Shown here: piece by piece, positions 1 to 5,010 of the stretch
Layout of the letters: each line of letters opens with the position of its first letter
Numbering within the stretch: position 1 is the stretch's first letter
NCBI GenBank assembly: GCA_903930515.1
Contig: CAIYYW010000087.1
Coordinates: 1-7,291, forward strand
DNA from: an uncultured delta proteobacterium
GTDB lineage: Bacteria > RBG-13-61-14 > DRUE01
Length of the DNA stretch: 7,291 nt
Reading direction: 5' to 3'
Translations under genes and position numbers: made by a program
Notes under the pieces: generated by a model
Databases searched by the model: none
What the model saw: the letters and a program-made list of their open reading frames with translations, nothing else
What the model was told of the DNA's origin: nothing

Positions 1-275
1 GCATCGACCACCTGCTGGTTCGTGATTTTGAGCGCGTCCTTGATGTTCTTGCCGATGATCATCTCGGTGGCCATGGAACTGGAGGCAACCGCGCTCGCGC
101 ACCCAAAGGTCTTGAACTTGGCCTCCCGGATAATCCCCTGAGCGTCTATCTTCAAATACATCTTCATTATGTCCCCGCAGACCGGGTTCCCAACTTCCCC
201 AATCGCGTTCGCGTCCGCAATTTCCCCCATATTGCGCGGATGCTGAAAATGATCCATAACCGTTTCGCTATACAT
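1..275 (-). CDS. nifU: NifU/IscU-type Fe-S cluster assembly scaffold protein, N-terminal part (runs off left edge)
   Basis: The N-terminal 91 codons of an Fe-S scaffold protein, on which a cysteine desulfurase (IscS/NifS) assembles a cluster for transfer to apoproteins in the cytoplasm. The protein begins MYSETVMDHFQHPRN, the standard opening of the family. It carries two of the three conserved cluster-ligand cysteines: C33 in the NPVCGD motif, with the conserved D35, and C59 in FGCASAVASSS. The third cysteine (near residue 105 in IscU) and any C-terminal NifU extension lie outside the window, so short IscU-type and long NifU-type proteins cannot be told apart. The ATG at 273-275 follows a GAGGT-type ribosome site about 8 nt upstream. 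The gene lies 65 bp after the cupin gene on the same strand and has its own candidate promoter. The fold assignment is very secure. Confidence 0.95.
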   Translation of the reverse strand, partial: MYSETVMDHFQHPRNMGEIADANAIGEVGNPVCGDIMKMYLKIDAQGIIREAKFKTFGCASAVASSSMATEMIIGKNIKDALKITNQQVVD

Positions 276-340: not shown

Positions 341-991
341 TCAACTTTTATCCAGGATTTCCAGCAGGCGGGCGGCCCAGGATTTTTGTTGGCGGGTTGG
401 ATGGTAAATCCGGCTGATTTCCCCGGTTTTCGGGTCAAATTTCCGGAGGTATCCCCTGGGGATGGGACGGGCATACGCGGACAGGCTGACCGCGAACTCC
501 CCTTCCGCCAGGCTCACCAGATGGATCCCGGCATCCTGGGGCCGGATATAAACGGTATTTTTCGGATCCAGCACCAGTTTTTCCTTCAACTCCAGCTTCA
601 CCCGCTCCGGCGAAACATATTCCTTGATCTCATAATTCTCCACCAGCAGCTTCCCGAACCAGCACCCGGTCACCCCCATCGCGTTATGATCGTGGATGAA
701 AACATCCGCGTCCGCGGCCCAGATCGCCATCCGAAGAGAAAAACATCCGTCCGGATCGCGCCAGAGCAGAACTTCATTCTTGAACAAATTGGCTGACTGC
801 TCCCTCACAAAATGAATGTCATGCGCCAATAGTTCCAGAATCCTTCTTAAAAGTTCCTGGTCCTGGAGCAGACGCGTAAGCGTGCTGCTGGTCAGCTTAA
901 ATTCCAGGGTCGGCTCTTCTTCTACCTGAAACCCTTCCCGCAGTTCCCGGATATATTCGTCCAGGCCCATCCGCTCTTCCAGCAGAGTCAT
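341..991 (-). CDS. Cysteine dioxygenase-like cupin (putative thiol dioxygenase / metal-dependent enzyme)
   Basis: A 216-residue protein with a cupin core like that of bacterial cysteine dioxygenase (CDO) type I and related thiol dioxygenases. CDO enzymes use a non-haem Fe(II) held by three histidines to add O2 to a thiol, giving a sulfinate. Visible ligands are H100 and H102 in FIHDHNAMGV and H157 in DAGIHLVSL. Y173 in VSLSAYARPIPRG lines up with the conserved active-site Tyr (Tyr157 in rat CDO). R78 in LLWRDPDG may correspond to the substrate-carboxylate Arg. Residues 1-70 are a helical N-terminal part, as in bacterial CDO-like proteins. The usual Ser-His-Tyr triad reads Ser169-Ser171-Tyr173 here, so the substrate or reaction may differ. 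The start ATG (989-991) has a GGAGGT site 9 nt upstream and overlaps the stop of the 52-residue gene (ATGA). The superfamily is fairly secure; the substrate is unknown. Confidence 0.78.
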   Translation of the reverse strand: MTLLEERMGLDEYIRELREGFQVEEEPTLEFKLTSSTLTRLLQDQELLRRILELLAHDIHFVREQSANLFKNEVLLWRDPDGCFSLRMAIWAADADVFIHDHNAMGVTGCWFGKLLVENYEIKEYVSPERVKLELKEKLVLDPKNTVYIRPQDAGIHLVSLAEGEFAVSLSAYARPIPRGYLRKFDPKTGEISRIYHPTRQQKSWAARLLEILDKS

Positions 992-1146
992 TTCTCTAAA
1001 ACCTCCCTTACCCCTTCATCCAACCCTTGCCGATACAACACCAGAACCCCCCGGTCCTGGAAAAAAATCCGCCCCAATTCAAATCCCCTGCTCAAATATC
1101 TCTTTGTTCCCGAGCGGTTTTTATACTCCAAGGCTTCGCGGGTCAT
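988..1146 (-). CDS. Small 52-residue protein of unknown function, coupled between dehydrogenase and cupin genes
   Basis: A 52-codon ORF beginning MTREALEYKNRSGTKR and ending GLDEGVREVLEK. I do not recognise a family. It has a basic N-terminal third (K9, R11, K15, R16, R20), a hydrophobic centre (FELGRIFFQDRGVLVLYRQG) that could form beta strands, and an acidic C-terminal helix. It has no cysteine, signal peptide or clear membrane span. Three observations support it as a real gene: a strong GGAGGA site 6 nt before the ATG; a start ATG (1144-1146) overlapping the dehydrogenase stop as ATGA; and a stop (988-990) overlapping the cupin start in the same way. It thus exactly fills the gap between two good genes, leaving no non-coding base. 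A role as a small partner or regulator of its neighbours is only a guess. Confidence 0.72.
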   Translation of the reverse strand: MTREALEYKNRSGTKRYLSRGFELGRIFFQDRGVLVLYRQGLDEGVREVLEK

Positions 1147-2222
1147 AAATATTCCTCCGGATTTATCCCCGCCTCTTTGGCCAGATTGCTCAGGTTCAGT
1201 ATTACCATCGGATGCAGCGGGATGCCGTTTTCCCTTCGCTCATCCTCAAATTCAAACTCCGGCTCGCCGTGGATATAGATGCGATCCTGGCCCTTGGCCT
1301 TGGGGGATTCCTTGAGCGAGTTCAGGGCCTGGTCCATGGTTTTTCCAAATTCATTGACCGGCCGGAATCCGTCCACCTTAACCGCCATAAAGAAATGACC
1401 GACATTGCTCGGCTCTTTCCGCATACTCATCAGCCCTTCCTGCTTGGCGCCGTAATTGGCGTCGGACAGGATCGCGGAGAGGATGTCAACCATCATCGCC
1501 AGACCGTATCCCTTGTGCCCGCCCAGTTCGCGGGTCCCGCCCAGGGGAGCCAGGTTCCCGCCTTTCACGATCATACTCGGGTCTTCCGTGAATTCCCCCT
1601 GGCTGTCATAAAGCCATCCGGCCGGAATCTTTTTATTGTTTTTCAGGGCAATCTCAATCTTGCCCAGAGGCACCGCGCTGGTGGCCATATCCAGCACGAA
1701 CGGATGGAGCTTCCCGGCCGGGACCGCGAAGCTGATCGGGTTGGTGCCCAACATACCCTTGGCGCCGAATGTGGGGGTGACCATTGAAACCGAGTTGGTC
1801 ATCACCAATCCCATCATCCCCTGTTTAAGCGCCATCATTGAATAATAGGCCGCGATCCCGAAATGGTTGCTGCGCCGGACCGAGATCAAGCCGGCGCCGA
1901 CCTTGTTCGCTTTGGCGATCGCAAGCTCCATCGCCTGTTTCGCCACCACCGGTCCCAGTCCGTTATCCCCGTCCAGCAAAGCGGTTGCCGGAAGCTCATT
2001 AAGAATTTTGATCGTGGGTTTGGGATTGACCGTGCCGTTCTTGAGCTTGCCGATGTAATAAGGAAGACGGGAAGCGCCGTGGGAATCTATCCCGCGAAGG
2101 TCCGCGGCGATCAAGGCCTCCGCGGCAATAATCGCGTCCTGCTCCGGGATCCCGGCCGCGACAAAGAGCTTTTTCATCAACTCTAAAAGTTTTTCCATCC
2201 GAACCCGCTTAAACTCTTCCAT
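1143..2222 (-). CDS. Ldh_2-family NAD(P)-dependent 2-hydroxyacid dehydrogenase (malate/L-lactate/sulfolactate dehydrogenase-like)
   Basis: A 359-residue oxidoreductase of the malate/L-lactate dehydrogenase (Ldh_2, YlbC/YiaK/ComC) superfamily, whose members interconvert 2-oxo acids and 2-hydroxy acids (or cyclic imino acids) with NAD(P)H. Hallmarks in order: RGIDSHGASRLP with the probable catalytic H48; SNHFGIAAYYS with H120; the cofactor-site motifs GTNPISFAVPAG (159-170) and LDMATSAVPLGKIE (177-190); and GGHKGYGLAMMVDILSAIL (234-252). The length is normal for the family (about 330-360). I chose the ATG at 2220-2222, with AAGGAGA 5 nt upstream. An ATG 42 nt further upstream would add a Cys/Lys-rich tail encoded by a hairpin repeat and is unlikely. 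The stop overlaps the next gene as ATGA. Specificity (malate, lactate, sulfolactate, ureidoglycolate, piperideine-carboxylate) cannot be read from sequence. A thiol-dioxygenase-like neighbour makes a sulfur-containing acid worth considering. Confidence 0.93.
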   Translation of the reverse strand: MEEFKRVRMEKLLELMKKLFVAAGIPEQDAIIAAEALIAADLRGIDSHGASRLPYYIGKLKNGTVNPKPTIKILNELPATALLDGDNGLGPVVAKQAMELAIAKANKVGAGLISVRRSNHFGIAAYYSMMALKQGMMGLVMTNSVSMVTPTFGAKGMLGTNPISFAVPAGKLHPFVLDMATSAVPLGKIEIALKNNKKIPAGWLYDSQGEFTEDPSMIVKGGNLAPLGGTRELGGHKGYGLAMMVDILSAILSDANYGAKQEGLMSMRKEPSNVGHFFMAVKVDGFRPVNEFGKTMDQALNSLKESPKAKGQDRIYIHGEPEFEFEDERRENGIPLHPMVILNLSNLAKEAGINPEEYL

Positions 2223-2238
2223 TATTTTCTCCTTCGGG

Positions 2239-3513: not shown

Positions 3514-5010
3514 ATGGACAAGCTGGAACATGAGAAAAAAGCGGACCGGGAGCTGGGAAAGAAGCGGAGCCTTTGGCTGGCGGAACTGAAGCTGGACGGT
3601 AAGGAAGACAAGCTGTTCGAGTTGGAAGTCTTGCTCAAGGGTCTGGACCGCTTTTTCAATCTGGAGAACCTTCCGTTCAACTCGGAGGACAACCCGATTC
3701 GTTTCAATTTTGCGGACGAGCTTTTGATCGCCTGCCAGGGCTTTGCGCGGATCACCGAGTTGTCTCGAAGGCTGCTGGAGGCGAGCGAGCGGAACTATTA
3801 CCAGTTCCGCTATTACATCGAGACCGAGTTGCTCGGGGATTTGGCCCGGGGAAGGATTGTCGAGCAGAGCCTGAGCCAGCGCACCCCGGATGAAAGCCTG
3901 ATGCTGACTTATACTTACTTCCTGAGCCTGAAGAACCTGTGCGTGGAGCTATCAAGGTTGCAGCAAGTCCAATACCCGCTGTTCTTCCACATCGGCTCCC
4001 TGGCCAGCCGCGCCATTGTCCAGAACCGCTTTTTTAATCCGATCAGCGGGATAGAATTCCGGCCCGAGTATGACCGGGTGGAGAACCTGATCGTGAAGCG
4101 GGCGGTTCGGGAGCTTAAGGATACCCGGCTCCGGCATTACATCTCGGTGATCATCCTGGCCTTTTACCGGCTGTTGCGCTACCTGGAATCCATCAAGGAG
4201 CGGTCCTTAAATATTGACCAGCTCAAGCAGAGCCTGATCATCTTCGCCCTGATCAATTCCGAGGCGCGCCATTTGATCCAGCATCTGGAACTGGAACTCA
4301 AGCCGGGCCTGGAAAAAAGCCGCAACCCGATGGCGCTGAATTTCGCGGAACTGGCCGACTCCCTGGCCTTCCAGCTCGGGATGGAACTCAAGAAGATCAA
4401 CCATACCGAACTGGCCGGAACCACCAAGCAGTCCCTGCTCGACCCGCTCAAGGCCTCGGTGGAAAACAGCAAGGGAATTCTCAGCAACTTCCTGGAGCAA
4501 AGCCTGGTCCAGATGATCCAACTCGCCCGGCCCGAGATCAAGGGCGAGGAAATCTTTCCCAATTTCGTTTCCAAAAAAGAACAGTCAAAAAAACTCCGGC
4601 AGGACCTGGCGGTTTTCAAGTCTTTGATGGACCGGTTTGAAGAGATCACCGAGAGCACGGTGGAAGGGGCGGCTCTGGACAATTTCATTAAATACCTCCG
4701 GCTCCAGAAGCTTTACATCCAATACCTGGAAAAGAGCGTGATTCCTTTTATCCGACACGGGGACCTGGTGGAATTCCGGAGATACTTCGCCAAGATCAAA
4801 TCGCTGAACCTTTCGGACCTGCACCGGATGGATCAGTTGGAGGAGTTCAAGATGCAATCCAAGTTTTTCAAGATTTTCCTCGAAACCACCCTGAGCCAGA
4901 TCAACCAGCGGGCCGACCTGCACGCAGTGCCGATGGACGAGGAGCGGGTGAGCGACCGGCTTAAAATCCTTCTCCAGCGCGACCGTGAAAATCACAAGGA
5001 GGGGCAATGA
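3514..5010 (+). CDS. Unrecognised 498-residue all-helical protein, first gene of the carboxyltransferase operon
   Basis: I do not recognise this family. The protein is rich in Leu, Glu, Lys and Arg, low in Gly and Pro, and has few cysteines (C74, C143). It reads as successive amphipathic helices with no signal peptide, nucleotide-binding loop or metal-binding cluster. The N-terminus (1-45) is highly charged and may be a coiled coil. The longest hydrophobic run, HYISVIILAFYRLLRYL (208-224), is better explained as a buried helix than a membrane span. Segments around 355-385 and 392-465 again look helical or coiled-coil. Its stop overlaps the carboxyltransferase start (ATGA), so the two are probably made together. 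A scaffold or regulatory partner is possible but unproven. The start lacks a ribosome site but is fixed by an in-frame stop 13 nt upstream. It is probably a cytoplasmic soluble protein. The coding call is secure because the frame is long, shares the neighbours' codon style and sits in an operon. Confidence 0.88.
   Translation: MDKLEHEKKADRELGKKRSLWLAELKLDGKEDKLFELEVLLKGLDRFFNLENLPFNSEDNPIRFNFADELLIACQGFARITELSRRLLEASERNYYQFRYYIETELLGDLARGRIVEQSLSQRTPDESLMLTYTYFLSLKNLCVELSRLQQVQYPLFFHIGSLASRAIVQNRFFNPISGIEFRPEYDRVENLIVKRAVRELKDTRLRHYISVIILAFYRLLRYLESIKERSLNIDQLKQSLIIFALINSEARHLIQHLELELKPGLEKSRNPMALNFAELADSLAFQLGMELKKINHTELAGTTKQSLLDPLKASVENSKGILSNFLEQSLVQMIQLARPEIKGEEIFPNFVSKKEQSKKLRQDLAVFKSLMDRFEEITESTVEGAALDNFIKYLRLQKLYIQYLEKSVIPFIRHGDLVEFRRYFAKIKSLNLSDLHRMDQLEEFKMQSKFFKIFLETTLSQINQRADLHAVPMDEERVSDRLKILLQRDRENHKEGQ

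Follow-up and report, generated by a model that had tools for sequence, protein, structure and literature searches.

Between a dehydrogenase gene and a cupin gene lies a 52-codon open reading frame (ORF) that shares an ATGA with each of its neighbours. Does it represent a new small partner gene, or does such tidy packing have a more ordinary origin? We examined this question in the window, the whole 7,291-base stretch of DNA analysed here, and compared it with the corresponding locus in a sister genome, G001. The features that we refer to are listed below; P0001 is the product of the 52-codon ORF and P0002 the product of the small gene in G001.

3..275, minus strand: NifU-like scaffold gene (PF01592, E = 5e-37), downstream, also in G001, cut by the window end
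341..991, minus strand: CDO-like cupin with a candidate 3-His site (H100, H102, H157), 71% identical in G001
988..1146, minus strand: 52-codon ORF (P0001), read here as a shortened copy of an 85-residue DUF4177-like gene, with a same-slot homologue in G001
1002..1008, minus strand: AGGGAGG, the likely cupin ribosome site, within the 3′ end of the small ORF; the G001 counterpart is AGGAGGG
1003..1089, minus strand: C-terminal tail, about residues 20-48, homologous to P0002 residues 55-84; codon score near that of real genes
1090..1143, minus strand: putative deletion junction, covering the first ~20 codons; matches neither spacer nor protein of G001 significantly and has a codon score near zero
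1143..2231, minus strand: Ldh_2 malate/L-lactate/sulfolactate-type dehydrogenase (PF02615, E = 3e-125; PDB relatives 1v9n and 2x06), 85% identical in G001
1153..1158, minus strand: GGAGGA, a Shine-Dalgarno-like site within dehydrogenase codons, also in G001

The small ORF and its packing

The window cupin alone showed weak similarity to CDO_I, and a two-sequence cupin profile matched cysteine dioxygenase structure chains (E = 1e-4), making the CDO link firmer. H100, H102 and H157 are kept by the cupin in both the window genome (G000) and G001, and their roles are proposed by analogy to the known 3-His site of cysteine dioxygenase. On the other side of the dehydrogenase gene, the spacer that separates it from an S58 peptidase gene (2232-2380) is a dispersed intergenic repeat with 46 matches in its own genome, itself included. 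Elsewhere in the window, a 498-residue ORF on the plus strand (3514-5010) had no Pfam match and overlaps a carboxyltransferase gene via an ATGA at 5007-5010.

The translation of the small ORF (988-1146, minus strand) is MTREALEYKNRSGTKRYLSRGFELGRIFFQDRGVLVLYRQGLDEGVREVLEK, followed by the stop. Its ATG shares an ATGA with the dehydrogenase stop (1143-1146), its TGA shares an ATGA with the cupin start (988-991), and GGAGGA at 1153-1158 lies six bases upstream of its start; the ORF, both overlaps and the upstream site were all found where the initial annotation had placed them. The accompanying view that such exact packing is unlikely by chance proved weaker than it was put. In composition-matched sequence with an ATGA at both ends in phase, the frame stays open 9.8% of the time, and by our own arithmetic a 1-in-3 phase factor lowers this to about 3%. 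In addition, the 5′ ATGA and GGAGGA are C-terminal codons of the dehydrogenase (GAG GAA TAT TTA TGA) that G001 shares exactly without using them to start its homologous small gene. Nor is the packing a conserved feature: the small gene of G001 has its own start, and the 3′ overlap with the cupin start is absent there. Because the 5′ signals are the dehydrogenase's own codons and the 3′ overlap is missing in G001, we consider the double overlaps to be weak evidence of design.

P0001 contains no cysteine, and its structure model is of low confidence (pLDDT 54). Scans of the 52-residue sequence against Pfam, NCBIfam and PHROGs returned nothing significant. A match to Yae1_N (E = 0.056) covered 14 residues only and was rejected. 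In the sequence search that found P0002 (below), the other matches of P0001 were weak (E = 0.04-0.9).

The same slot in a sister genome

The only same-genus genome compared was G001 (CAIUDS01; contig CAIUDS010000459.1), a lake-sediment bin labelled delta proteobacterium. The Ldh_2-cupin pair was found in G000 and G001 only, the latter being the sole other carrier among the phylum's three genomes compared, and a contig scan of genomes gave the G001 contig as its sole match. The next cupin relative (E = 6e-25), in G173 (L043:1408-2139), has a different neighbourhood, with neither an Ldh_2 gene nor a small gene beside it. The gene order in G001 is the same as in the window, namely Ldh_2 dehydrogenase, small gene, CDO-like cupin and NifU (PF01592). 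Like the window ORF, the G001 small gene lies between the Ldh_2 and CDO-like cupin genes, and its C-terminal 30 residues are 57% identical to P0001. Unlike the window ORF, it is full length at 85 codons (L003:1339-1596), has its own ATG and a GGAGGTG ribosome site, and keeps a C-x5-C motif and a predicted helix. It starts 65 bases past the dehydrogenase stop and ends with a TGA four bases ahead of the cupin ATG. From dehydrogenase stop to cupin start, the slot measures 326 bases in G001 versus about 152 in the window, which is 174 shorter. The dehydrogenase-stop ATGA of G001, behind GGAGGA, opens a frame of only 16 codons (MTVPDGPENGKLKSDI, L003:1271-1321), which precedes the 85-codon gene and may be a coupling leader.

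The homology between the two small genes was found in the tail. With P0001 as the query against G001, the tail matched the C-terminus of P0002 (E = 4e-7), and with P0002 as the query against the window genome the match was 57% identical over 30 amino acids (E = 2.4e-6); across both searches, tail identity was 55-57% over about 30 residues. Aligned to the G001 spacer, the 62 bases that follow the ATGA gave no significant match, so the deletion break points cannot be placed, and a protein alignment of the first ~20 residues with P0002 is not trustworthy. Codon scores, referenced to the usage of 26 long ORFs of the same genome, were -0.01 for the first 20 codons and 0.32 for the tail, where real genes average 0.37 and off-frames -0.38. 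The whole ORF scored 0.19; 16% of real-gene windows scored that low and 4% of off-frame windows that high.

The initial annotation had proposed a coding sequence in the dehydrogenase-cupin slot and a comparison of synonymous with non-synonymous change. The two genomes support a coding sequence there: the G001 homologue lies between the same enzymes, and the part that it shares with the window ORF is under protein-level constraint. The 28 shared tail codons comprise 9 identical codons, 8 with synonymous differences and 11 with amino-acid differences, and the changes at codon positions 1, 2 and 3 number 7, 7 and 13. Residues are kept at 17 of the 28 positions, compared with 11.8 expected from an equal number of random changes (P = 0.002), and the NG86 method gave a dN of 0.23 and a dS of 2.5, the latter saturated. 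Residue conservation, the codon-position pattern and dN/dS together argue that the tail was protein-coding during much of the window-G001 divergence, a constraint that spans the whole divergence of the two genomes and can neither date the truncation nor show constraint afterwards.

Relationship to DUF4177-like proteins

No family had been recognised for the small ORF. This holds for direct scans of P0001, but a DUF4177-like relationship is recognisable through G001, and only by that route. Searching with P0002 led to a full-length 80-residue protein from another phylum (L030) and then to L034, L054, L055 and L056. All five match DUF4177 (PF13783; best E = 6.7e-6), and the same five match the Sp36 family (NF053529; best E = 4e-8). 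A profile of these five members, A6, built without P0001 and P0002, finds P0002 (E = 2e-5, residues 23-78), and by this profile relationship P0002 is DUF4177-like in the superfamily sense; neither P0001 nor P0002 gave a direct hit to PF13783, whose curated cut-off is 25 bits. P0001 alone was missed by the DUF4177-like profile, and its link to DUF4177 is indirect, through P0002: only the C-terminal ~30 residues align, short of a complete strand-helix-strand-strand domain. The C-x5-C motif is invariant in six full-length proteins including P0002, and P0001, without any cysteine, falls outside this subfamily. The P0002 structure model is of low confidence (pLDDT 50), and if it is right, P0001 would lack the first strands and the helix and keep only the last two strands. 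A DUF4177 member has been described with a helix at residues 14-30 and three strands (PMC11322243), in line with the P0002 model. The tail homology, the same gene order, the shorter slot and the missing parts are shown by these comparisons.

The Sp36 family takes its name from sP36, a small protein of Methanosarcina mazei that binds AmtB1 and GlnK1 (PMC10714827). Although the five full-length relatives match its model, P0001 and P0002 gave no hit to it, L030, the one full-length relative with a printed score, reached 20.4 bits and so lies below the 50-bit membership cut-off of NF053529, and neither amtB nor glnK is among the window genes. Viral contigs scanned with the cupin pair and the DUF4177-like alignment yielded nothing, plasmids scanned with P0002 yielded nothing, and no other intact copy of the DUF4177-like gene was found in the window genome.

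Origin of the short form and its possible role

Because the corresponding slot of G001 holds an 85-residue gene that is intact, we think it probable that the window ORF is a 5′-truncated, possibly decaying DUF4177-like gene and not a new partner gene. The 85-residue form appears to be the older and the 52-residue form the derived one, since full-length members occur in other phyla and since the A6 profile, all five members of which match DUF4177, finds P0002. The ancestor would have encoded a DUF4177-like protein of ~80-85 residues, with strands, a helix and two further strands and with C-x5-C, its gene lying between those of the dehydrogenase and the cupin. The window lineage would then have lost about 174 bases net, through a single deletion or several, and with them the start, the ribosome site, the first strands, the cysteines and the helix. 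Only the final ~30 codons would have remained, fused in frame with the ATGA that pre-existed at the dehydrogenase stop. An additional small indel, close to the 3′ end, would have shifted the stop into the cupin's ATGA, which comes from the cupin's own ATG A. The chance of a frame open back to the ATG after such a deletion is roughly 1 in 8 by our arithmetic, which multiplies a phase factor of one third by a probability of about 0.4 that 20 codons stay open at the composition stop rate. Ribosomes re-initiating at the ATGA would run on to the cupin start, which would couple translation of the dehydrogenase to that of the cupin.

From these comparisons we infer truncation rather than extension, loss of function, and coupling. 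The remnant probably makes no working DUF4177 domain, and its remaining role, if any, would most likely be to carry ribosomes over from the dehydrogenase to the cupin. Our preference is for a gene in decay, or one retained solely as a coupling bridge. If the peptide is made, the absence of most of the domain makes a folded partner protein less plausible than a translational bridge to the cupin. Against truncation and decay, the tail remains in frame and free of stops, the codon usage of the ORF is nearer to that of genes than to that of off-frames, and the shared tail shows protein-level constraint; the comparison rests on one sister genome, and both assemblies are draft.

These same features could instead reflect a functional miniature protein, in which the terminal hairpin and a new N-terminus have been selected to bind a flanking enzyme. 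The open frame, the ribosome site, the ATGA coupling at both ends, the gene-like codon score of the tail and its constraint would all suit such a protein, but the helix, the first strands and C-x5-C are missing, the first 20 codons look non-coding, the predicted fold is of low confidence, and the overlaps are not kept in G001. We regard it as unlikely. Somewhat more doubtful still is a DUF4177-type protein cut to its last hairpin and kept as a translated 52-residue gene locked by its stop-start overlaps, whether as a mini-subunit or as a translational bridge from the dehydrogenase to the thiol-dioxygenase-like cupin. An assembly or binning artefact, in which about 174 bases of a gene of ~85 codons, intact in the true genome, went missing from the contig, would be easier to accept for a window that is itself a contig of a 401-contig draft genome. 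However, both flanking genes are intact, and simply cutting the G001 sequence would not give this junction, since no significant match to it was found for the first ~20 codons, which makes this account improbable. That the frame is chance or pure spacer and never encoded protein is scarcely credible and largely refuted, for even though roughly 10% of spacers flanked by ATGA in phase would be open, the same slot in G001 holds a homologue with significant protein similarity and constraint, which is in turn homologous to DUF4177-like proteins of other phyla.

Returning to truncation, we conclude that the window ORF is genuine but unremarkable: a DUF4177-like gene that has been shortened, with double overlaps that lack conservation. 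It illustrates how deletion within a pre-existing small gene can produce a neatly overlapping ORF, and exact packing alone is therefore no evidence for a new gene.

Homologues do not always sit between an Ldh_2 dehydrogenase and a CDO-like cupin, a point that the initial annotation had asked to test: the full-length relatives in G103, G121 and G387 adjoin ferritin instead. In these genomes a C-x5-C DUF4177-like gene lies directly downstream of ferritin (L030:1477-1719, L034:1501-1731 and L056:1501-1728, respectively), and desulfoferrodoxin, rubrerythrin or peroxiredoxin genes are near the small genes; the L056 neighbours were named from sequence, without a profile scan. A by-product of this work is thus the C-x5-C DUF4177-like subfamily, whose neighbours suggest a link to iron or thiol chemistry. 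Because the subfamily adjoins ferritin and oxidative-stress genes in the three genomes in which its neighbours were examined, and a CDO-like cupin and NifU here, we offer a role in iron or thiol handling as a lead only.
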